Source: Picochlorum sp. 'celeri'
Taxonomy: Eukaryota > Chlorophyta > Trebouxiophyceae
Assembly (NCBI GenBank): GCA_010909725.1
Contig: JAACMV010000017.1
Location: 992,001 to 1,056,000 of the forward strand
DNA: 64,000 nt
Reading direction: 5' to 3'
Shown: positions 5,217 through 51,069 of the stretch, one piece after another
Layout: the number at the start of each line of letters is the position of its first letter
Position numbering within the stretch: position 1 is the stretch's first letter
Translations under genes and position numbers: made by a program
The notes under the pieces: model-generated
The model's database searches: none
Seen by the model: the letters and a program-made list of their open reading frames with translations, nothing else
What the model was told of the DNA's origin: nothing

Positions 5217-5234
5217 TATTTATTAATGTACAGT

Positions 5235-5268
5235 AAAATTTTTTAATTTCGTTTGTCGGACGGAATGT
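5235..5268. repeat. Left terminal inverted repeat, Fanzor copy 1
   Basis: The 20 bases at 5235-5254 match the reverse complement of 7773-7792 with one mismatch. After a 7-base spacer here and a 6-base spacer at the other end, GGAATGT is also shared. The inner part overlaps one strand of the predicted guide-RNA closing helix. Confidence 0.75.
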
Positions 5269-5338
5269 TCCAAACTTGGAAGTTCCATCGTTCTCTCTGC
5301 TTTATCTTGAAGCATAGCGTCTGCAAAAAGCAGCCGAC
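5255..5338 (-). ncRNA. Predicted Fanzor guide-RNA (omega/fRNA) scaffold, copy 1
   Basis: The segment lies between the Fanzor stop codon and the left end of the element, where Fanzor and TnpB guide RNAs are encoded. Read by eye it folds into a closed multi-hairpin unit. GTCGG at 5255-5259 pairs with CCGAC at 5334-5338. Inside are a hairpin at 5321-5333 (CTGC, five A, GCAG), a hairpin at 5298-5314 (TGCTT with AAGCA), and a nested hairpin at 5262-5286 (GGAA with TTCC, enclosing TTCCA with TGGAA). On the transcript the scaffold is followed by the terminal repeat and then host sequence, which would serve as guide. The pairing is seen directly; the function is inferred from the Fanzor family. Confidence 0.6.
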
Positions 5339-5351
5339 TTACATGCCGAAT

Positions 5352-7703
5352 TCATTGCCGTGTTGATGTCCTTTGCCTTTTCCTCGTCCTCTTGAAAGCC
5401 TTGATTCGAGATCCATTGTGACACTTTTCCAAAAACAAGTCTTTGATATTGATACTGGCATTGACATCACGGTCCCAAACATTTCGAATGCATTCATTGT
5501 TGTGACAACGTTTCATCCTGAATTGTTTGTTGTACTGTTCCATTGCCTCATGACAGCAAGAACAGAGTTTGGACGTATTGAATTCATTAACCAACACAAC
5601 TGTGGCACATTCCGATACCTTGTTGAACAGTTTTGTGCTCATGATAGGAGCAGTGCCCCTCATTGTGCCGTTATTATCACCATCACCATACGCCACGATG
5701 ACTCTCTTCTGTGCCTCTTTGTTTCTTGTTCCACAGATTCGAGCAACCACATCCTCCATGGCCGACTTTTCCTTGCAAAATTTCCTCATCTTCTGTTTCT
5801 GATACCATTTTTTGTCATCGAAGAAGGCTTGTTGCAGTTGGGGCCACATAGAAACTTGGAATCTGTAACTCTCAAAAATTTTCTCAAAATCTACTGTCTT
5901 GCATGTTGGCACAGACACCCATGCAGGACAGTATTCAGACATCCTTTTCTTCATTTTGGCTGTATACTGTTTCTGACTAGATAAGAAGATCCATTCTCCT
6001 GACCCCAGAGAATCACTTTTATATCTGTCTTCCACCTCTGCATGACGACCATTTTCTGCATTCCACTTTGCATGGATCTTTTGCTTTTCCGAATCATGAA
6101 AAACCCACGTGGCCGCTGACTTTTTACCTGGGTCCAAACCGACAATGATACAATCTGTGTGATATATACCATGGTCATCTTTGCGTATGCCAGCCAACCT
6201 TTTGATCCTTTCTGTGATGACTGTCTTGTCTTTGTTTTTAGCCTTTCGTTTCTGTAGAACGTCCTTTTGTGACTTTAATGTATGCAACAATGGCTTCAGT
6301 AGAACATAATGTATGGTGGAAATGTCACCAAGGAGAATACGCAAAGGGTCATATCTGATCTTTTTTGCAATAATGTTGGTTGCAAACATCCCACAATAGG
6401 TGGCCCACAACTTTGCTTTGACGTAATTCATATCATCCTGCAGATGGATTATCTTGCATTCCAGATCCGACTTCACAGTGTCTATAACAGCAGAAACAGA
6501 GACGCCATCAGTGCATATAGAGCATCCGAATCTGAGTTTCGTTTGGTCCTTCATGTGCTTTTTTTTCAATACTCGCTTCATGTTGAATATCGATTTCCAA
6601 TAATAATACTTATTTGTATAGTCATCCAGTGCTGGACAGTCATCTACTATCTTTCTGATATATGGATATTTCTTTGCGAGTTGCTCAACCATAGTCTTCA
6701 CTGCTGTGCTGGAGATATGGATATGCTTTGGTTTCCAGGCCATCTGTGGACACAGACAAAATGTCCATTTCTGTCTTCCAAGTATACTCTTCTTCCCTTC
6801 AAACTCTCCGTTTCTGAACCTCTGTTGCAGTGATTCCACGAATGGCTCCAAGTGACCCAAAATGAAGAAGCAAATTCTGGATTTCTCAGAAAGAGTTGTC
6901 GTCTTTGGCACCAACGAGCAAATGATATCCAAGGCTCTCTGTGCTTCATCCCATACTGACACATCAGACGCAAATTCTGTCAATGATGGTCTACGTTCAA
7001 CAATATCACTGACTTTCGTCCTCTCCCAGAATGCCTGTGTGATTGCAGAAAATACTTGTCCAAACTTCTTCTTTGACAAATTTTTGATTTGGTCAAAGTC
7101 CGTGTCGTCTCGAAATAGCAAATATCTCAGATACCGTAATGCATATACATTAAGATTGGTTTCCAAATGCGTGGTATGCATAACAGACGACTGCTGGGCC
7201 ATCTGCTCCATTGTTTTGCCTCTCCAAGAAGAGAGACAACCCTGTGGCCAATCTGTTTTTAACCCAGTCTCCTCACAATATTCCTTGCACAAGTCGCGCA
7301 AGTTGGTATCAACATCCTTTCTCTCCTTCTTTTGTTGCAAATGATTAGCAAGGTGTCTGTAGATTTTGTTGTAGAGTTCGTAGAGAGTTTCATCTTTGTG
7401 GTCTCTAAATGCCCCACCGTTCCTCAATAACAATAGATGCATGACATGATGCACATGAATCTGTAGTCTACTCAGATAGAATACACATTCTTCAATTTCG
7501 CGTTGAACCACTTTGAACTTACAAAAAGGCTGCAAAGTGCACTTGACGACTGTCTTATTGAAAAAACGGTCTTTATCCTTCTTTATAGCCACATCCAATC
7601 GAGTAAACTTCTTTTTCTTCACCTTTTTCGATGGTGTGGCGGACACCTTTCTCTTTTTTTTCATTTTGAAATGACACGGTTGGCGATGGCGGCTCGACTT
7701 CAT
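5352..7703 (-). CDS. Fanzor RNA-guided endonuclease (eukaryotic TnpB homologue), copy 1
   Basis: This intact single-exon gene encodes 783 residues from the ATG at 7703; an upstream TTG would add 14. Residues 14-28 are highly basic with KKKRKV at 15-20, a likely nuclear localisation signal. The C-terminal third is a RuvC nuclease: GLDPGKKSAATWV with Asp524, the YGDG segment at 672-675 where canonical TnpB has its second acidic residue, NEFNTSKLCSCC with Glu707 and zinc ligands Cys714 and Cys717, Cys733 and Cys738, then RDVNASINI with Asp746. The Glu just before the zinc ribbon is the rearranged catalytic Glu reported for Fanzors. The tail is Arg/Lys-rich. The length fits Fanzor1-type proteins. 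No frameshift or stop is present, so the gene looks recently active. It differs from copy 2 at residues 555, 584, 601 and 606. Confidence 0.93.
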   Translation of the reverse strand: MKSSRHRQPCHFKMKKKRKVSATPSKKVKKKKFTRLDVAIKKDKDRFFNKTVVKCTLQPFCKFKVVQREIEECVFYLSRLQIHVHHVMHLLLLRNGGAFRDHKDETLYELYNKIYRHLANHLQQKKERKDVDTNLRDLCKEYCEETGLKTDWPQGCLSSWRGKTMEQMAQQSSVMHTTHLETNLNVYALRYLRYLLFRDDTDFDQIKNLSKKKFGQVFSAITQAFWERTKVSDIVERRPSLTEFASDVSVWDEAQRALDIICSLVPKTTTLSEKSRICFFILGHLEPFVESLQQRFRNGEFEGKKSILGRQKWTFCLCPQMAWKPKHIHISSTAVKTMVEQLAKKYPYIRKIVDDCPALDDYTNKYYYWKSIFNMKRVLKKKHMKDQTKLRFGCSICTDGVSVSAVIDTVKSDLECKIIHLQDDMNYVKAKLWATYCGMFATNIIAKKIRYDPLRILLGDISTIHYVLLKPLLHTLKSQKDVLQKRKAKNKDKTVITERIKRLAGIRKDDHGIYHTDCIIVGLDPGKKSAATWVFHDSEKQKIHAKWNAENGRHAEVEDRYKSDSLGSGEWIFLSSQKQYTAKMKKRMSEYCPAWVSVPTCKTVDFEKIFESYRFQVSMWPQLQQAFFDDKKWYQKQKMRKFCKEKSAMEDVVARICGTRNKEAQKRVIVAYGDGDNNGTMRGTAPIMSTKLFNKVSECATVVLVNEFNTSKLCSCCHEAMEQYNKQFRMKRCHNNECIRNVWDRDVNASINIKDLFLEKCHNGSRIKAFKRTRKRQRTSTRQ

Positions 7704-7759
7704 ACCAATCCAAGGTTCTAGAAGATTCGGATTGACCAGAGTCAAATGGACTAGATGTT

Positions 7760-7792
7760 ACATTCCTTAATTAAACGAAATTTAAAAATTTT
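7760..7792. repeat. Right terminal inverted repeat, Fanzor copy 1
   Basis: ACATTCC, TTAATT and AAACGAAATTTAAAAATTTT, read on the complement, mirror the left terminus with one mismatch in the outer 20 bases. In the Fanzor direction this is the promoter-side end, about 57 bases before the start codon. Confidence 0.75.
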
Positions 7793-7799
7793 GGAGTAT

Positions 7800-13869: not shown

Positions 13870-14316
13870 ATCTCGAGGGCACTAGAGACACAGGCCGGAT
13901 GTCATAACTGCCGGTCGCAGTGAGCCCCTTCCCGTTGTAAATCATCCCAAGTCCCCTGAAAAAATATGCTCACCGCAACCCCACTGGGGGCATTCATATT
14001 ATTTATAATGATGTAATTGAAGGTTTTGGAGGCCATAATGGTTGTGTCCACCCGACATGGGGGTGTGCGGGGACCTTGTCAGAAAGATGCCCTGTTCAAA
14101 AGACGTCTGAGACAGTGCGAGAGGTGCGTTTCGGGGCGTTTCGCCCGTTGGTATCGAACTTAAAACTCTTATGGAGTATTTTGAGCCGCTATATGGTCGG
14201 TGAGATGGCGGCATCAGGCGGAACGAGTGCCCCAATTCTCAAACCTGGTGTTTTGAACCAGTTTTACCTAGCCTTTCTACCCATTCTGCAGTGAGGCCGA
14301 GGCCATCCATGGGTAC

Positions 14317-17300
14317 ATGATGAAAATATCAGACCATATGCGTGATATGGTGTGCGACTATGGGGCAACCTGCGCTTTGGTGGCGTGGTTGGGGCCTCAG
14401 AGGAGCATCTATGTCTCCAGAACAGGCAACATTGGCTACTCAGATGCCCCCGAAATCTGGGCATCTGTGCACCAAACCTTCATGAATTTGCTTCAAAAGT
14501 CCAAAGGTATTAAGGACATAGCCTTGCCCAGGATTCCTGTGGAGATATGCCTGTTTCAGGGGAGTAATCCCAACAGTCGTGTTGTCCAGCAAGGCTGGCA
14601 CAACAAGACCAGATGCATTCAAAATGCATTCGAGAAGGTGCAATCCTTGACGAATCTTCCCGTGTACATTTCTATATCTGGATATAAGGGGGTGTTGCTG
14701 AAGAATGCCGCCGATCTGCGCGAATTATCAGTCCTAGATGAGGTGTTTCATTTTCACAACATGGGCAAGAGGTTTCCTCCTTTGGATATTGCACTTGCGC
14801 AGCAGCCCAAGGGCATGAAACGGCGGAAATTGTCCGAAAGTAGGATGATGACGAACTATTCCAGGAAAAGAACGAAGACCTGGGATGGAGAGCCGCTCTT
14901 AAGGCCTGGTTCTCTAGAGTGGTATGAGGACATGCTGAGACAGGTCAAATACCCACCTGTGCAGCCACTCTGCAGACAGGAGCACATGGGGCATCGAGAA
15001 TCCTTATCATGGGCGTGTATAGACTCGAGGAAACACGGGCATGTGGGCGAATCTCTGAATCATATGATGTTAGTGAGGGTTGACTGCCCAGATGCCAAAG
15101 AGAGAAAATTTGAATGCAACTGTGATACTTACACTTCTGGCTACGACGAGGAGGGCGACTGTGTGCACGTTCAGTACTTGGAAAAGCACTATGATACCTT
15201 AAAGTCTGGCACATTTGGGGCGGCGCATGACGTGGTACAGGTAACTAGGAGGGATGGGACCTTTGTGGCATACTACTATGATGGGGGCTTTCTCAAAGTG
15301 GACCAGGCTGGTTGGCGGTGCTCCTTGTGTTCTCGAGACAATCGCAGCTGTCGTCATGTTCAGAAAATATGTTCTATGAATCAAGAAGGTGCCGTGGCGC
15401 AGAATGCACGAGGCAATGGCAGTCAGGAGGTGTATGTGATAGACAGCAGGCCTGGCTCAGTAGAGTGGTATGTGGAGAACCACCCAGAAGAGGCACGAAT
15501 AGATATGCCGATGCATGGCAGTGTGCTTGAAAGTATTCAGAGGATATATCACGCAGGTTTGAGCGCCTGGGAGCATCCTAGCGGCGAACGATACTTTGAA
15601 GGGCTTGCAGAACTGAAGCCTCCAAAGCCATCTAGGCAATGCTGCTGCCAGCAGGACTATGAGGACGCCAGCGGGCTCGTACTGGACTGCCAAGACGCCT
15701 TAGTATTCCTGAATCCCACGCGATATGATGCAGTGCACAAGAGATCCGTATACAAGTGGGTATGCCCCAACAGAAGGGCAGAGTGTGAAGTGCCATACAT
15801 GGGGGTTCAGGATGGCCTGTGGAGAGCTTCGAACACGATGATTATAGAGCTTCAAATGATGCAAGATGCCTATAATGCATCTGTTCTAAAGGGTGGTCAG
15901 TCTTTGGAAAGCCAGTGCGCGGATTTATGCAGCAGATACAGTGGGAAGCAGTTGTTTGGTGAGGATGGGGTACCTGGGGCCCCACTGGAAAAGCCCTTTA
16001 TGGATGCCACGCTCTTTCGTAATGCTGCAATCCAGTTCGGTAAATGCACATCGTGGGCAATGAAATACGACGATGGGGATAAACTGGTGGAGCTAGAGAA
16101 CCAGATGATGTGCCCTTGCTGCAAAGACTCCCCAAAGGTGCTGATCATGGATGGGACAAGCATGAGCATCAGATCCAGAGCTTGCTTCGCCGACAGCATC
16201 ACGGCCACCGATGAGAACGGCAAGAGTGTTCCAAAGCTTCGGGGCAAAAGGGATAGGTCGTTCCTCAATGTAGACAAGGCCAGAAGAACAAGGAAAGCTA
16301 GGCTTTCCCTTGCTAGGCTGTTGCTGCAGTTCCAGAAGCGGATCAGGAAGGCTCGCGACGCTGCGGGTCTGGAGGAATTTTGGAGGGATAAAGGACGACA
16401 TTTAAGACAACTTGGAACCCTTTGGAATGTGGATTCCTTCGTGCAATGGGCGTTTGCTAAAGCCAAAGCCTGGGACTCCTCAGAGAGGCTTACCAGCCTG
16501 GCAGACTTCATCTTTTGCCTCGCCTCCGAGTCCCCCGCTGTATCCTACATCACGTTGAGATGTTGTATTCTACTCAAAGAATGTTTGGAGAGCCGCACGG
16601 TCCCGAGTGGTGTGCTGTCGCAGCTGAGCAAGGAGGCCCCACCCCTGTTCAAACTGCTGTTGACCATCAAGCGGCCTGGGGACTCTTGCGTACACATTCC
16701 GGCGGAATGGGGCAATCTTCTGAATGAATTAGTGACCCGAATCGAGAGTACAAATGCTTTCCATGATAGATACACGCTGGAAAGCGAGCTTGGGAGTGGT
16801 GTCCCACCTCAGGGACCATCAATTCTGGATGGGTCATACCTACATTCTGGCATCCTGACGGGCCTGCAGCGCGTCCGATCCAAGCCCCAATATCAGGCAG
16901 ACTCGATGAAAGAGGAAGAGAGCGTTGACGGGAGGAAAGATGCGTGTGAGCACGCGTTCTGCAAGCCTGGAGACAGGACAGGAGGGGTGTTCACCATCCT
17001 GTGTGAGCATGGTTTTGTGTATGCATCCTTCATCATCAAAGAAGCAGAAGGGAGGAAAGAACCATTTGCATTCATGACACAGTATCTCAGAAAAGCCCCG
17101 GAATACGTCATTTACGACAATGCATGCAACTTGCAGGACTATTGCTTGAGCAGGGCACCATTGTTCTTCATGCACACCAAATTCTTCGTGGATGGCTTCC
17201 ATTGGAGGAACCACAAAGCATGCAGTCTTGGATATATGATTAAAGGGTACGAAGACAAGTGGTTACAGGCGTTAAACACGCAAGTTGCAGAGCAGAACAA

Positions 17301-17472
17301 CTCATCCTTGAAGAACCTGAAGGCCATGATGAGCAGAATGTCACAGAAATCGTTCATGACGCTCCTGAAGTCATTCATGTGTCATTGGAATTACCACAAG
17401 CTAAAAAGAATGAATATCGAGCAGAAACGAAAGCAGAGGAGGAACGGTTGGCCGTCCTCAGGTGCCATGTGA
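14317..17472 (+). CDS. KDZ-superfamily transposase (Zisupton-like) with SWIM zinc finger
   Basis: This intact frame encodes 1051 residues from an ATG. Residues 267-284 form a CxC...CxH SWIM zinc finger (C267, C269, C282, H284), followed by a second Cys/His-rich stretch (CSLCSRDNRSCRH). The catalytic core shows the KDZ DDE triad: CPCCKDSPKVLIMDGTSM with Asp612, IYDNACNLQDYC with Asp934, and AEQNNSSLKNLK with Glu992. The diagnostic FVDGFHWRNHKACS segment, with His, Trp, His and Cys, lies between the last two. Zisupton proteins in fish and KDZ proteins in fungi and green algae share this layout. The enzyme should cut and rejoin the element ends. No stop or frameshift is seen, so it may be active. 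Its last 15 bases overlap the convergent partner gene. Confidence 0.92.
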   Translation: MMKISDHMRDMVCDYGATCALVAWLGPQRSIYVSRTGNIGYSDAPEIWASVHQTFMNLLQKSKGIKDIALPRIPVEICLFQGSNPNSRVVQQGWHNKTRCIQNAFEKVQSLTNLPVYISISGYKGVLLKNAADLRELSVLDEVFHFHNMGKRFPPLDIALAQQPKGMKRRKLSESRMMTNYSRKRTKTWDGEPLLRPGSLEWYEDMLRQVKYPPVQPLCRQEHMGHRESLSWACIDSRKHGHVGESLNHMMLVRVDCPDAKERKFECNCDTYTSGYDEEGDCVHVQYLEKHYDTLKSGTFGAAHDVVQVTRRDGTFVAYYYDGGFLKVDQAGWRCSLCSRDNRSCRHVQKICSMNQEGAVAQNARGNGSQEVYVIDSRPGSVEWYVENHPEEARIDMPMHGSVLESIQRIYHAGLSAWEHPSGERYFEGLAELKPPKPSRQCCCQQDYEDASGLVLDCQDALVFLNPTRYDAVHKRSVYKWVCPNRRAECEVPYMGVQDGLWRASNTMIIELQMMQDAYNASVLKGGQSLESQCADLCSRYSGKQLFGEDGVPGAPLEKPFMDATLFRNAAIQFGKCTSWAMKYDDGDKLVELENQMMCPCCKDSPKVLIMDGTSMSIRSRACFADSITATDENGKSVPKLRGKRDRSFLNVDKARRTRKARLSLARLLLQFQKRIRKARDAAGLEEFWRDKGRHLRQLGTLWNVDSFVQWAFAKAKAWDSSERLTSLADFIFCLASESPAVSYITLRCCILLKECLESRTVPSGVLSQLSKEAPPLFKLLLTIKRPGDSCVHIPAEWGNLLNELVTRIESTNAFHDRYTLESELGSGVPPQGPSILDGSYLHSGILTGLQRVRSKPQYQADSMKEEESVDGRKDACEHAFCKPGDRTGGVFTILCEHGFVYASFIIKEAEGRKEPFAFMTQYLRKAPEYVIYDNACNLQDYCLSRAPLFFMHTKFFVDGFHWRNHKACSLGYMIKGYEDKWLQALNTQVAEQNNSSLKNLKAMMSRMSQKSFMTLLKSFMCHWNYHKLKRMNIEQKRKQRRNGWPSSGAM

Positions 17473-18726
17473 AGGTTCTGGCAGGCAGGACACAGCATCA
17501 GTTCTCTCAACAGACCACTCTTGGCCTCCATCCCCTGACACGGCCTCGCCCTGGCCTTCAACAACCTCCTCACCACAGCAATAGCGTCGATAGAACTTGT
17601 CAAGCATCGACTGCAGGAGGAGGAGCCTTGCTGTGGTCTGCTGCTGCCTGCAGTTGTGCTGGGCAAACTTGGTAAGGACATGCTCAACATCTGCATACGG
17701 AATGAAACAGAATTCCTGGTTCGGCTTATTCCTCATGATTATTTTTTTTGATGTAAGTTCATCGACGGCCACATCTGTGAGTTTTGATACCAGTACTGCC
17801 TTTGGCAACACAAACTTGTTTGTCTTCTGTGTATGGTTCCCAAAATTCTTCACAGCAGGGTCACCAAACGCTTTCCTCAGACACCTTTGCAGGTCGTATT
17901 GCAGTACACAGAATCCATTCGAGATTCGACGTCCATATTTGTCCATCACTGCGTGTTCGCCCACCTTGATGTTGAAGAGATGGATGGTTTGGTCCACTGT
18001 GGCCCTGTCCCCATCACGTTGCTGCAACATGAACTCTAACCCTTTCGTGCTGACAGCATGAGCTTGCTCTGTCCCCACTACTGTCGTCCCGTAGAAACTG
18101 CATATCTCAATGTGGTCGTGCAAGCCCCCCGATGCTTCGTCCATGGCTGGCTCATCCACTCCAACTGCAGGGGTGTGGTCAACCGCTTCTGCCTCCTCTG
18201 CAACAAAGGATCCAAGCCCAAGGATGCACTGTTGCAGGTACCGGGTCTTCTCTTGCCATGCATCGATTGCATGTTGCGATGTGATGACCAAGGGCGAAGC
18301 CAGCTCGACCACCTTTTGGGCATGGGCCCTGTTCCTGGACAACTCACCCTCTAGCTGTGCTACTTGAGCCTGCAGGGAGGCACACCTTGACCTCTCTTCT
18401 TCGTGCATTCCCTCCATCTTTCTGCTCTTCTCATACCACACCTTGACGTCACTATACAGGGCAGTGATGAGTTCCGGAAACCCTTCAGGAAGGCTATTTT
18501 TGGCCAAAATGTGGCCATTTTCCAGTCTTGGGTACTTCCTGGGAGGCTCCTCTTCCCGAGGTTTGAAAAATTTTCTCGGCGGTGCCGCCTTGTTTGCGCG
18601 ACATGTATCATTATTCACTATATCTACATCGATTTCTTGGGTATGATCCGAATACGCGCGATCGGTGCCGCCGATCTCACGCGCAGGCACATCGTCCGCA
18701 CTCGCATTCGGGGCAAAAGTTGGCAT
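17458..18726 (-). CDS. Uncharacterised second protein of the KDZ transposon
   Basis: This frame encodes 422 residues from an ATG and meets the transposase gene tail to tail with a 15-base overlap. I recognise no family. Residues 1-75 are polar with a basic patch (PPRKFFKPREEEPPRKYPR) that could be a nuclear signal. About residues 95-150 are a predicted coiled coil rich in Glu, Arg and Leu. The C-terminal half is mixed, with several Cys and QQQTTARLLLLQSMLDKFYRRYC. Its place inside the proposed element ends, and the shared overlap, suggest it belongs to the transposon, perhaps as a DNA-binding or accessory protein. It could instead be a host gene next to the insertion, although the candidate ends argue against that. 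Confidence 0.6.
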   Translation of the reverse strand: MPTFAPNASADDVPAREIGGTDRAYSDHTQEIDVDIVNNDTCRANKAAPPRKFFKPREEEPPRKYPRLENGHILAKNSLPEGFPELITALYSDVKVWYEKSRKMEGMHEEERSRCASLQAQVAQLEGELSRNRAHAQKVVELASPLVITSQHAIDAWQEKTRYLQQCILGLGSFVAEEAEAVDHTPAVGVDEPAMDEASGGLHDHIEICSFYGTTVVGTEQAHAVSTKGLEFMLQQRDGDRATVDQTIHLFNIKVGEHAVMDKYGRRISNGFCVLQYDLQRCLRKAFGDPAVKNFGNHTQKTNKFVLPKAVLVSKLTDVAVDELTSKKIIMRNKPNQEFCFIPYADVEHVLTKFAQHNCRQQQTTARLLLLQSMLDKFYRRYCCGEEVVEGQGEAVSGDGGQEWSVERTDAVSCLPEPSHGT

Positions 18727-18801
18727 GAAATCCCTTGTTTTTCGCCTCTTTGTGGCTCAAAATCCCTCCAACTTTGATACTATATATATTTAAAGCGGCA
18801 G

Positions 18802-18881
18802 TATTGCGCGACTTGCACACAAAAGCGCAATATGCTTGAGAAACAAGGACAATCGCACGTGCGTTTGAACACTATTCAAAC
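18802..18881. promoter_or_regulatory. Cluster of palindromes upstream of the KDZ partner gene
   Basis: Within 80 bases lie TATTGCGC and its complement at 18802-18809 and 18825-18832 (8 bp), the 10-base palindrome CGCACGTGCG at 18854-18863, and GTTTGAA with TTCAAAC at 18863-18869 and 18875-18881 (7 bp, 5-base spacer). They are 76 to 155 bases before the partner gene start and inside the right end of the transposon. They may be transposase or regulator binding sites. Confidence 0.5.
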
Positions 18882-19027
18882 TCTCCTGGCATTGTCAGCC
18901 AAACGATTTAAAATGTATTCAAACATACACTGTTGCAATATCATGTGCAACAAGTATATACACACTACATACTATCACTCCCTTTTTTCTATGTTTTTAT
19001 TACATCAGGGGCCTCACTAGAGAAGTC

Positions 19028-24716: not shown

Positions 24717-24823
24717 TGATCCTACCAGGGATCGAACCTGGAATCTCCTGTTCACTTCCGCAGAGGGCATGCCAACCCTCGTTCCACCGTAGACAGGCGC
24801 CTTATCCATTGGGCCATAGGACC
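24717..24823 (-). tRNA. tRNA-Arg(ACG) with a 34-nt intron
   Basis: Read on the minus strand the gene has acceptor strands GGTCCTA and TAGGATC with discriminator A, a D arm (GGCCCAATGGATAAGGC), an anticodon stem CCTGT/ACAGG around the loop CTACGGA, and a T arm with GGTTCGATCCC. The anticodon is ACG. The loop is interrupted one base after the anticodon by about 34 nt, the canonical site for nuclear tRNA introns. The mature length would be 73 nt. The tRNA lies 16 bases after the E2 gene stop codon. Confidence 0.92.
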
Positions 24824-47515: not shown

Positions 47516-47543
47516 TGATTACAGTGCAGTATGTTATTACAGT

Positions 47544-47577
47544 AAAATTTTTTAATTTCGTTTGTCGGACGGAATGT
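47544..47577. repeat. Left terminal inverted repeat, Fanzor copy 2
   Basis: This is identical to the copy 1 left repeat. It pairs with the complement of 50069-50101 with one or two mismatches in the outer 20 bases. Confidence 0.75.
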
Positions 47578-47647
47578 TCCAAACTTGGAAGTTCCATCGT
47601 TCTCTCTGCTGTATCTTGAAGCATAGCGTCTGCAAAAAGCAGCCGAC
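47564..47647 (-). ncRNA. Predicted Fanzor guide-RNA scaffold, copy 2
   Basis: This matches the copy 1 scaffold except for one base at 47611. There the middle hairpin TGCTT/AAGCA loses its loop-proximal pair and keeps four. The GTCGG/CCGAC closing helix and the other two hairpins are unchanged. The host sequence just left of 47538 would be the guide, and it differs from that of copy 1. Confidence 0.6.
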
Positions 47648-47660
47648 TTACATGCCGAAT

Positions 47661-50012
47661 TCATTGCCGTGTTGATGTCCTTTGCCTTTTCCTCGTCCTC
47701 TTGAAAGCCTTGATTCGAGATCCATTGTGACACTTTTCCAAAAACAAGTCTTTGATATTGATACTGGCATTGACATCACGGTCCCAAACATTTCGAATGC
47801 ATTCATTGTTGTGACAACGTTTCATCCTGAATTGTTTGTTGTACTGTTCCATTGCCTCATGACAGCAAGAACAGAGTTTGGACGTATTGAATTCATTAAC
47901 CAACACAACTGTGGCACATTCCGATACCTTGTTGAACAGTTTTGTGCTCATGATAGGAGCAGTGCCCCTCATTGTGCCGTTATTATCACCATCACCATAC
48001 GCCACGATGACTCTCTTCTGTGCCTCTTTGTTTCTTGTTCCACAGATTCGAGCAACCACATCCTCCATGGCCGACTTTTCCTTGCAAAATTTCCTCATCT
48101 TCTGTTTCTGATACCATTTTTTGTCATCGAAGAAGGCTTGTTGCAGTTGGGGCCACATAGAAACTTGGAATCTGTAACTCTCAAAAATTTTCTCAAGATC
48201 TACTGTCTTGTATGTTGGCACAGACACCCATGCAGGACAGTATTCAGACATCCTTTTCTTTATTTTGGCTGTATACTGTTTCTGACTAGATAAGAAGATC
48301 CATTCTCCTGACCCCAGAGAATCACTTTTATATCTGTCTTCCACCTCTGTATGACGACCATTTTCTGCATTCCACTTTGCATGGATCTTTTGCTTTTCCG
48401 AATCATGAAAAACCCACGTGGCCGCTGACTTTTTACCTGGGTCCAAACCGACAATGATACAATCTGTGTGATATATACCATGGTCATCTTTGCGTATGCC
48501 AGCCAACCTTTTGATCCTTTCTGTGATGACTGTCTTGTCTTTGTTTTTAGCCTTTCGTTTCTGTAGAACGTCCTTTTGTGACTTTAATGTATGCAACAAT
48601 GGCTTCAGTAGAACATAATGTATGGTGGAAATGTCACCAAGGAGAATACGCAAAGGGTCATATCTGATCTTTTTTGCAATAATGTTGGTTGCAAACATCC
48701 CACAATAGGTGGCCCACAACTTTGCTTTGACGTAATTCATATCATCCTGCAGATGGATTATCTTGCATTCCAGATCCGACTTCACAGTGTCTATAACAGC
48801 AGAAACAGAGACGCCATCAGTGCATATAGAGCATCCGAATCTGAGTTTCGTTTGGTCCTTCATGTGCTTTTTTTTCAATACTCGCTTCATGTTGAATATC
48901 GATTTCCAATAATAATACTTATTTGTATAGTCATCCAGTGCTGGACAGTCATCTACTATCTTTCTGATATATGGATATTTCTTTGCGAGTTGCTCAACCA
49001 TAGTCTTCACTGCTGTGCTGGAGATATGGATATGCTTTGGTTTCCAGGCCATCTGTGGACACAGACAAAATGTCCATTTCTGTCTTCCAAGTATACTCTT
49101 CTTCCCTTCAAACTCTCCGTTTCTGAACCTCTGTTGCAGTGATTCCACGAATGGCTCCAAGTGACCCAAAATGAAGAAGCAAATTCTGGATTTCTCAGAA
49201 AGAGTTGTCGTCTTTGGCACCAACGAGCAAATGATATCCAAGGCTCTCTGTGCTTCATCCCATACTGACACATCAGACGCAAATTCTGTCAATGATGGTC
49301 TACGTTCAACAATATCACTGACTTTCGTCCTCTCCCAGAATGCCTGTGTGATTGCAGAAAATACTTGTCCAAACTTCTTCTTTGACAAATTTTTGATTTG
49401 GTCAAAGTCCGTGTCGTCTCGAAATAGCAAATATCTCAGATACCGTAATGCATATACATTAAGATTGGTTTCCAAATGCGTGGTATGCATAACAGACGAC
49501 TGCTGGGCCATCTGCTCCATTGTTTTGCCTCTCCAAGAAGAGAGACAACCCTGTGGCCAATCTGTTTTTAACCCAGTCTCCTCACAATATTCCTTGCACA
49601 AGTCGCGCAAGTTGGTATCAACATCCTTTCTCTCCTTCTTTTGTTGCAAATGATTAGCAAGGTGTCTGTAGATTTTGTTGTAGAGTTCGTAGAGAGTTTC
49701 ATCTTTGTGGTCTCTAAATGCCCCACCGTTCCTCAATAACAATAGATGCATGACATGATGCACATGAATCTGTAGTCTACTCAGATAGAATACACATTCT
49801 TCAATTTCGCGTTGAACCACTTTGAACTTACAAAAAGGCTGCAAAGTGCACTTGACGACTGTCTTATTGAAAAAACGGTCTTTATCCTTCTTTATAGCCA
49901 CATCCAATCGAGTAAACTTCTTTTTCTTCACCTTTTTCGATGGTGTGGCGGACACCTTTCTCTTTTTTTTCATTTTGAAATGACACGGTTGGCGATGGCG
50001 GCTCGACTTCAT
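47661..50012 (-). CDS. Fanzor RNA-guided endonuclease, copy 2
   Basis: This is an intact 783-residue frame with the same start, basic N-terminus, RuvC residues (Asp524, Glu707, Asp746) and Cys4 zinc ribbon as copy 1. It differs by Thr for Ala555, Ile for Met584, Tyr for Cys601 and Leu for Phe606. All four lie between the RuvC-I Asp and the second RuvC segment. None hits a catalytic or zinc residue, so both copies could be functional. Confidence 0.93.
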   Translation of the reverse strand: MKSSRHRQPCHFKMKKKRKVSATPSKKVKKKKFTRLDVAIKKDKDRFFNKTVVKCTLQPFCKFKVVQREIEECVFYLSRLQIHVHHVMHLLLLRNGGAFRDHKDETLYELYNKIYRHLANHLQQKKERKDVDTNLRDLCKEYCEETGLKTDWPQGCLSSWRGKTMEQMAQQSSVMHTTHLETNLNVYALRYLRYLLFRDDTDFDQIKNLSKKKFGQVFSAITQAFWERTKVSDIVERRPSLTEFASDVSVWDEAQRALDIICSLVPKTTTLSEKSRICFFILGHLEPFVESLQQRFRNGEFEGKKSILGRQKWTFCLCPQMAWKPKHIHISSTAVKTMVEQLAKKYPYIRKIVDDCPALDDYTNKYYYWKSIFNMKRVLKKKHMKDQTKLRFGCSICTDGVSVSAVIDTVKSDLECKIIHLQDDMNYVKAKLWATYCGMFATNIIAKKIRYDPLRILLGDISTIHYVLLKPLLHTLKSQKDVLQKRKAKNKDKTVITERIKRLAGIRKDDHGIYHTDCIIVGLDPGKKSAATWVFHDSEKQKIHAKWNAENGRHTEVEDRYKSDSLGSGEWIFLSSQKQYTAKIKKRMSEYCPAWVSVPTYKTVDLEKIFESYRFQVSMWPQLQQAFFDDKKWYQKQKMRKFCKEKSAMEDVVARICGTRNKEAQKRVIVAYGDGDNNGTMRGTAPIMSTKLFNKVSECATVVLVNEFNTSKLCSCCHEAMEQYNKQFRMKRCHNNECIRNVWDRDVNASINIKDLFLEKCHNGSRIKAFKRTRKRQRTSTRQ

Positions 50013-50068
50013 ACCAATCCAAGGTTCTAGAAGATTCGGATTGACCAGAGTCAAATGGACTAGATGTT

Positions 50069-50101
50069 ACATTCCTTAATTAAACGAAATTTAAAATTTT
50101 T
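50069..50101. repeat. Right terminal inverted repeat, Fanzor copy 2
   Basis: This mirrors the left end of copy 2 and is the counterpart of 7760-7792, with one T/A difference in the outermost run. Confidence 0.75.
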
Positions 50102-50104
50102 ACG

Positions 50105-51069
50105 TTATTTCATCTTCTGACGCCTGGATTTTCCTGGACGCTGTCTCGGTTTGGATCTTTTCGGATCTCCCGAGGCAGCCGAATACGCATCATTCTGCTT
50201 ACTTCGCCTCTTGGGACCACCAAATCCATACTTGGCGTCTCGCTTCGTCCTCTTCAAAGATTTGCCGCGTGCCGAAAATCTATCGCCTAATTTTTGGCCC
50301 TTTGGTTTTTTATCGCCTAATCCCACCTCATTCAAGTCAAAGTCGCCTTCAAAATTGTTCTTGGCCCTAGCTTTCCTCATGTTTGCGACACTCTCAATAG
50401 CTTGCTTCCTCTGCTGAGACCTCTCTTTGCGCCTCTCTGCTGCCACCTGCTTGCTGAATTTCCTACTCTCCCTTTCTTTACGACGCTGTTCAGACTCTTC
50501 TATGACTGTGCGCTCATGCACGAGCTGCTCTTTCACTTTGGCCATGTGGGCATCAGTCTTCACCATCTCTGCAAGATAATCATCTGGCCTCCTCCACGGT
50601 ATGCCCTCCTTCTCAAACTTGGAAATCGCCTCGAAGGCTGCCCTCTGTGCCTGATTGTAAAATGCCAACTCCCTTTCTAGATCATTTTCTACATCTTCAA
50701 TCTCAGTTTCCTCCCTGCTCAACAACACCAACCCTTCCTTCCACATCTGGGACTGGCCTCCCCAGGAAATGTCTTTCAGGATTTCAGTCATTTTTTCCGC
50801 TGCATACACGCCGTTTTCTTCTGCCGTTGCTTCTTCGAGTTCATCTTCATCTTCTTTTTCATATTCTCCGGATATATTCTCAAGTCGCAAACGACTCTTC
50901 ACCTTGGGGTCTTGCAGAGCAACTTGAATCTCCTGCGCAGCGAGTCTCGTTATGAACCACAATGCCCAATGTCGAGTATATACAACACCATACATACCTC
51001 ATCTTCAGAATCATGAATGTCCTCCGAATTCTCCTCTTCCGACCAGTCTTCTTTCCTTTTCCTGGCCAT
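50105..51069 (-). CDS. EBP2: rRNA-processing protein EBP2, two exons
   Basis: Exons 51069-50998 and 50932-50105 join in phase 0 through a 65-nt intron (GTATGT donor, GCGCAG acceptor) to give 299 residues. The N-terminal half is acidic. The EBP2 core follows: ELAFYNQAQRAAFEAISKFEKEGIPWRRPDDYLAEMVKTDAHM, then ERTVIEESEQRRKERESRKFSKQV. The tail is strongly basic and suits a nucleolar protein. EBP2 is needed for 27S pre-rRNA processing and 60S ribosome assembly. It diverges from the SCC2 gene across about 97 bases. Confidence 0.92.

Follow-up and report, generated by a model that had tools for sequence, protein, structure and literature searches.

Transposons of the mariner type that carry a Fanzor are a known kind of element, and the marks of mariner are TA duplications and terminal inverted repeats (TIRs) (PMC3627910). 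Among those described by Bao and Jurka (2013, PMC3627910), PUl-4 carries a Fanzor1 alone between mariner-type inverted repeats with TA duplications, while PUl-1 combines a Fanzor1 with a mariner-like transposase. SpuFz1 of Spizellomyces punctatus is encoded by a single-ORF element of ~2.1 kb that has inverted repeats and occurs in many copies (Saito et al. 2023, PMC10432273). Its guide RNA lies between the stop codon and the 3' repeat, a conserved CA precedes the 5' repeat, and its TAM is CATA (PMC10432273). The most abundant repeat of the diploid green alga Auxenochlorella UTEX 250-A also encodes a Fanzor and is called uncharacterised in the preprint that reports it (PMC12633428).

The element analyzed here occurs twice in a 64-kb stretch of the Picochlorum celeri genome (C17:992001-1056000, hereafter the window), and both copies encode a Fanzor, probably a nuclease that cuts DNA under RNA guidance. 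Likened by description, it resembles PUl-4, and a longer relative on contig C20 resembles PUl-1; the present set differs from both in coming from a green alga, in its 13 open copies and in a transposase that matches Pfam DDE_1 (PMC3627910). With the SpuFz1 locus it shares one ORF, inverted repeats and many copies, and the A-TA at its flank resembles CATA, although RNA and TAM were measured for SpuFz1 and are predicted for the window element (PMC10432273). The Auxenochlorella repeat, likened by description as well, is similar in being a Fanzor-encoding repeat of a diploid green alga (PMC12633428). Among the matches listed from the Fanzor literature, no description of the 2.57-kb element of P. 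celeri was found. To our knowledge, the role of Fanzors for their host transposons is not settled.

We consider it likely that the window element is a Fanzor, probably a Fanzor1, carried on a non-autonomous Tc1/mariner-type cut-and-paste transposon that is mobilized in trans and restored by RNA-guided cutting. The DDE_1 transposase of the C20 relative, or a lost one like it, would act in trans to mobilize the short elements. The Fanzor would bind an RNA that runs from about its own stop codon through the element end into the flank, and with this guide it would cut DNA in which the flank is present and the element absent, at a site adjoining an A-TA motif on the opposite side. A copy that contains the element would then serve as the repair template and bring it back. 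This compact diploid alga combines 13 copies with an open frame, a candidate for the autonomous partner, one or more Fanzor-free relatives whose ends match, and a target motif predicted from the flanks, and therefore models in which the Fanzor retains the element, spreads it by homing or is carried as a passenger should be separable by ordinary experiments. The P. celeri set could thus ease the testing of the natural role of Fanzors.

The two window copies and their Fanzor

Copy 1 occupies 5231..7796 and copy 2 occupies 47540..50105 of the window, each with 2,566 bp on the minus strand. The preliminary description had reported two near-identical 2.56-kb repeats with one uninterrupted 783-residue frame each and imperfect inverted repeats as bounds, all of which were recovered. 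Positions 5229-7792 aligned with 47538-50101 over 2,564 bp with 6 substitutions and 0 gaps (99.77% identity), a match that is beyond chance. Both Fanzor frames (5352..7703 and 47661..50012) are on the minus strand, encode 783 aa from the first ATG and contain a single stop, the terminal one; a TTG (at 7745 in copy 1) extends both frames to 797 aa.

Intact copies end in 24-bp TIRs, TA-CAGTAAAATTTTTTAATTTCGTTT at one end and TA-CCGTAAAAATTTTAAATTTCGTTT read from the other, which are identical at 21 of 24 positions. In the window, the ORF-3' TIRs lie at 5231..5254 and 47540..47563 (plus strand) and the ORF-5' TIRs at 7773..7796 and 50082..50105 (minus strand), the latter with altered tips in both copies (CTCC..., ACGT...), which in copy 2 concerns the first base. 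The flanking TAs are found at 5229..5230 and 7797..7798 for copy 1 and at 47538..47539 and 50106..50107 for copy 2. Of the limits given previously for copy 1, the left one at 5229 stood, while the right one at 7792 falls short, as the element with its TA ends six bases further at 7798 (50107 in copy 2). TIRs and TA flanks, the marks of Tc1/mariner, are therefore both present, and a search for the combined end pattern gave 48 matches and 0 in the reversed control.

Copy 1 lies 12 nt past the stop codon of a helicase frame, and its distance to the Per1 stop is 1 nt. Copy 2 sits inside the stop codon of EBP2, whose present TAA is made of the TA at 50106..50107 and the altered last base of the copy at 50105; to judge from the other flank, TAATAAC, the original stop was probably TAA as well. 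An assembly artefact is an unlikely source of the repeat, since the flanks of the two loci are unrelated, six differences lie within the copies, and both loci also occur on C8, the homologue of C17. However, identity between the flanks on C8 and C17 is 99.9-100%, and the C8 copies may therefore be assembly duplicates rather than independent evidence.

The RuvC Asp, Glu and Asp of the protein were located at D538, E721 and D760 and the Cys4 ribbon at C728, C731, C747 and C752 (numbering of the 797-aa frame), as had been read from the letters. The DPG motif is present at RuvC1 (GLDPGK, D538), the alternative glutamate six residues before the zinc finger is present (E721, then C728), and the Cys4 finger is followed by the RD..NA aspartate (D760). 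DPG motif and alternative glutamate are given as marks of Fanzors (PMC10711439), and a glutamate at the alternative position is absent from both of the two canonical TnpBs compared. The protein matched Pfam Cas12f1-like_TNB (PF07282) at 5e-8, with 33.4 bits against a cut-off of 26.3, and had no match in the NCBIfam search.

GtFz1, the Fanzor1 of Guillardia theta (PDB 9cer, 9ces, 9cet), and the window Fanzor are far apart, and a search of solved structures with the single sequence returned no Fanzor, with weak lectin matches alone. Four further Fanzor genes in the genome encode proteins of 809, 1020, 1026 and 1016 aa, with identities to the window Fanzor of 50, 29, 19 and 20%, respectively. A five-member profile of these and the window Fanzor matched GtFz1 across RuvC and zinc finger at 4.2e-8, followed by an entry named Transposase at 0.25; GtFz1 was the sole Fanzor among the four solved sequences matched up to E 10. 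Its identity as a Fanzor, proposed beforehand, is borne out by the residue marks together with the PF07282 and GtFz1 matches. It is probably a Fanzor1, of which the window element shows the location in a TIR and TA element (not IS607) and the enlarged protein of 783 aa. AlphaFold2 with 3 sequences gave a mean pLDDT of 29.8, and a scan of viruses yielded 2 relatives, both canonical TnpBs of 372 and 370 aa. A later start in the Fanzor frame is followed by the motif KKKRKV, which we take to resemble a nuclear localisation signal.

Of the larger Fanzor genes (L056, L057 and L058 with 1020, 1026 and 1016 aa, respectively), the 1020-aa gene has a UUCG hairpin and the TIR-like AAAATTTACTTGTA downstream of it, and no TIR is evident past the stop of L057 and L058.

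Copies across the genome and a longer relative

The assembly searched comprises 27,412,692 bases in 30 contigs. The P. celeri genome is described as a phased diploid of 27.43 Mbp that comprises two 15-scaffold sets, with 46% GC and an SNP heterozygosity of 0.8% (PMC7225527), and contig pairs such as C8/C17, C4/C30, C15/C27 and C2/C22, among others, behaved as homologues. Mapping of the copies by DNA search, a check named in the preliminary description, found at least 23 element places, at least 20 of them near full length. The frame is open in 13 of 20 near-full-length copies, and the copy on C11 matches from residue 5 on. Most of them (18 of 20) are situated no more than 105 kb from a contig end. 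Between loci, copies differ at 1-15 of 2,541 bases, and at 37-45 when compared with a composite locus on C15/C27; the family is young, as judged from the 1-15 differences.

A DDE/D transposase is absent from the window element, as the Fanzor frame fills it, and the element is therefore non-autonomous and not a complete mobile unit. The earlier claim of a complete natural locus with its own ends thus holds for an intact Fanzor inside a transposon with its own ends, and it does not extend to a transposase. DDE_3 was not found in the genome. The best candidate for the mover of the short elements is a 6.0-kb element at C20:34488-40512, with related TIRs that depart from the search pattern by 5 and 2 mismatches. 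Its Fanzor of 809 aa is 51% identical to that of the window over 754 aligned codons and is preceded on the same strand by a frame of 896 aa, of which the C-terminal 407 aa match DDE_1 at 1.4e-13. The long and the short element align at both ends, and the shared sequences include CGAGCCGCCATCGCCA close to the 5' end and, at the stop codon, TGAATTCGG. The C5 allele is split between frames. A search of the genome with the transposase part gave 17 matches, the others being weaker and some having long open frames. Mobilization in trans is uncertain because the C20 Fanzor has just this 51% identity and the ends deviate from the pattern by the mismatches given above.

A TIR-bounded locus of 5.3 kb (C15:912451-917773; C27:932120-937442) was considered as an autonomous element and rejected, as the part of the C15 locus that was read lacks a frame of more than 167 aa beside the Fanzor. 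Besides a Fanzor copy, this part contains ~2.7 kb of sequence that is mostly of subtelomeric type. The composite (L054, L050, L049), with its mostly subtelomeric-type DNA, perhaps moved as a unit out of copies that lay close together, as the two at C21:96.6 and 101.7 kb do.

A Fanzor-free element of 531 bp was found at C2:1322212-1322742 (L059) and C22:1296350-1296880, with one mismatch per end to the pattern of the Fanzor element. While the 550-nt ghost elements of SpuFz1 retain the scaffold region (PMC10432273), the one 531-bp element read resembles the Fanzor element, by eye, at the ends alone. One further locus, L060, showed a one-sided TIR match.

Predicted guide RNA, flank motif and selection

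The 124 nt from the Fanzor stop codon to the element end are the predicted guide-RNA scaffold region (5231..5354 in copy 1 and 47540..47663 in copy 2, both on the minus strand). A guide-RNA region had been counted as part of the locus in the preliminary description, and the fold did not show it: z of the window copies was -1.17 to -1.29, which is not significant and similar to shuffles. The corresponding values were -2.73 and -3.63 (two cuts) for the 809-aa Fanzor of C20 and -2.13 for the 1020-aa Fanzor. From the stop codon on, 20 of 24 nt are identical between the window and C20 elements, while third codon positions are 41% identical, and the local score of this stretch was 29 against a maximum of 28 in 500 mononucleotide shuffles. 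This conservation past the stop is the best hint of a guide RNA in the sequence.

In the direction of the element, the ORF-5' flank ended in A-TA in all 11 distinct sites (background of A 0.36, p 0.0017 after correction for 120 tests; the motif was found by looking). Alleles were counted once and the composite locus was included, L044, L047, L049 and L050 gave no flank, and the count was made without the 6.0-kb and 531-bp elements; in the former, T and not A precedes the TA, and A-TA would be 11 of 12 if it were counted. An A at -5 occurred in 9 of 11 sites (0.043 corrected). Downstream, A followed the TA in 6 of 9 flanks (p 0.0038, uncorrected; L047, a rearranged L043 allele, was excluded), and a symmetric preference of the transposase may therefore account for part of the motif.

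Based on the upstream flanks, a TAM with ATA is predicted for the window Fanzor. It is quite possible, at somewhat less than even chances, that A-TA is instead the target preference of the transposase and uninformative on the target motif of the Fanzor. The target of the superfamily is TA, and the downstream A in 6 of 9 flanks fits such a preference, but the signal is stronger upstream, with 11 of 11 and a second preferred A at -5, and the conserved bases before the 5' repeat of SpuFz1 coincide with its TAM (PMC10432273).

Between the window and C20 Fanzors, dN is 0.40-0.45 and dS is 1.47 or saturated, which indicates long-term constraint. Within the family, 12 clean copies from 8 loci (out of the 20 near-full-length copies) contained 36 replacement and 20 silent variable sites, compared with a neutral ratio of 3.27. 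The silent sites stem mostly from the C15/C27 composite locus, in which the differences are concentrated at 484-655, a pattern that resembles conversion. When this locus was omitted, the young copies contained 19 replacement and 5 silent sites, close to the ratio of 3.27 expected, and thus show no sign of constraint since amplification. The near-neutral 19:5 and the lack of support by fold for the predicted guide RNA in the window copies are what would be seen if the Fanzor were a passenger, open since the copies are young and no longer useful, with the transposase of the longer relative doing everything. This account is rather doubtful, as the long-term constraint between the two Fanzors is strong, the sequence past the stop is conserved, and the 36 replacement and 20 silent sites of all 12 copies lie under the neutral ratio. 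RNA-guided restoration of a transposon moved in trans remains the preferred reading.

Homologous contigs and other features of the window

Seven loci are filled on both homologous contigs, six as matching pairs and one on C19/C11 with a truncated partner. In the six allelic pairs, the elements differ by 2 substitutions over 15,245 bases, compared with 37 over 16,789 in the flanks of 1.4 kb (Fisher 1e-8, with substitutions that are clustered and not independent); the subtelomeric copies on C13/C29/C1/C21 and those on C11/C19 are not simply allelic and were left out of this comparison. In two of these pairs, the 1.4 kb of flank compared is identical, and in three pairs the differences start 24-108 bases from the element. 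Phased assemblies of this type may repeat collapsed stretches in both phases. The low divergence of elements relative to flanks hints at copying between homologues and serves as a lead only.

No partner was seen on C15 for the copy at C27:10470, nor on C2 for the fragment at C22:13712. A clean empty site with one TA was not found at the three flanks tried (C27:10470, C19:1186523 and C22:13712). The candidates were rejected, as four paralogous sites match the C27:10470 copy in the ORF-5' flank alone and then diverge, the sole other match for C19:1186523 is C11, whose copy lost its ORF-5' end, and C22:13712 is a fragment with a flank that occurs three times on C2. The recent activity read earlier from near identity and intact frames is supported in part, by the youth of the family; the seven loci filled on both homologues, the missing clean empty sites at the three flanks tried and the lack of purifying selection in the young copies without the composite speak against it.

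These pairs also bear on homing, by which the Fanzor would spread the element to the empty homologue through guided cutting beside A-TA and repair, so that young non-autonomous insertions occupy both phases. If true, this would be a natural eukaryotic RNA-guided homing system, and both the divergence of 2 against 37 substitutions, clustered and not independent as they are, and the filling of seven loci on both homologues, where identical copies of a KDZ transposon often are not, agree with it. We nevertheless regard it as improbable, as allelic gene conversion or constraint could yield the same pattern, collapsed assembly or loss of heterozygosity would also produce the two pairs without flank differences, the start of differences at 24-108 bases in three pairs leaves scant space for co-converted flank on that side, and the C27:10470 copy and the C22:13712 fragment are without partners.

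The KDZ transposon lies between the Fanzor copies at 13889-19015 of the window, is ~5.13 kb long, matches PF18758 at 1.2e-8 and is flanked by a 9-bp duplication, CACTAGAGA. Ten other full-length places are 100% identical to it (bits 9247-9252). The window copy has an empty allele on C8, and five of the ten other places (C8 twice, C11, C4 and C6) lacked a full-length match on the homologous contig; the remaining five (C14, C18 and C7) could not be judged. The KDZ transposon looks younger than the Fanzor family. A frame of 422 aa inside the repeat (17458-18726, minus strand) is convergent with the KDZ transposase frame and had no Pfam match at 0.01. Finally, Rfam identified a tRNA at 24717-24823 (minus strand, 48.7 bits) that was missed by ARAGORN, and its length of 107 suggests an intron.
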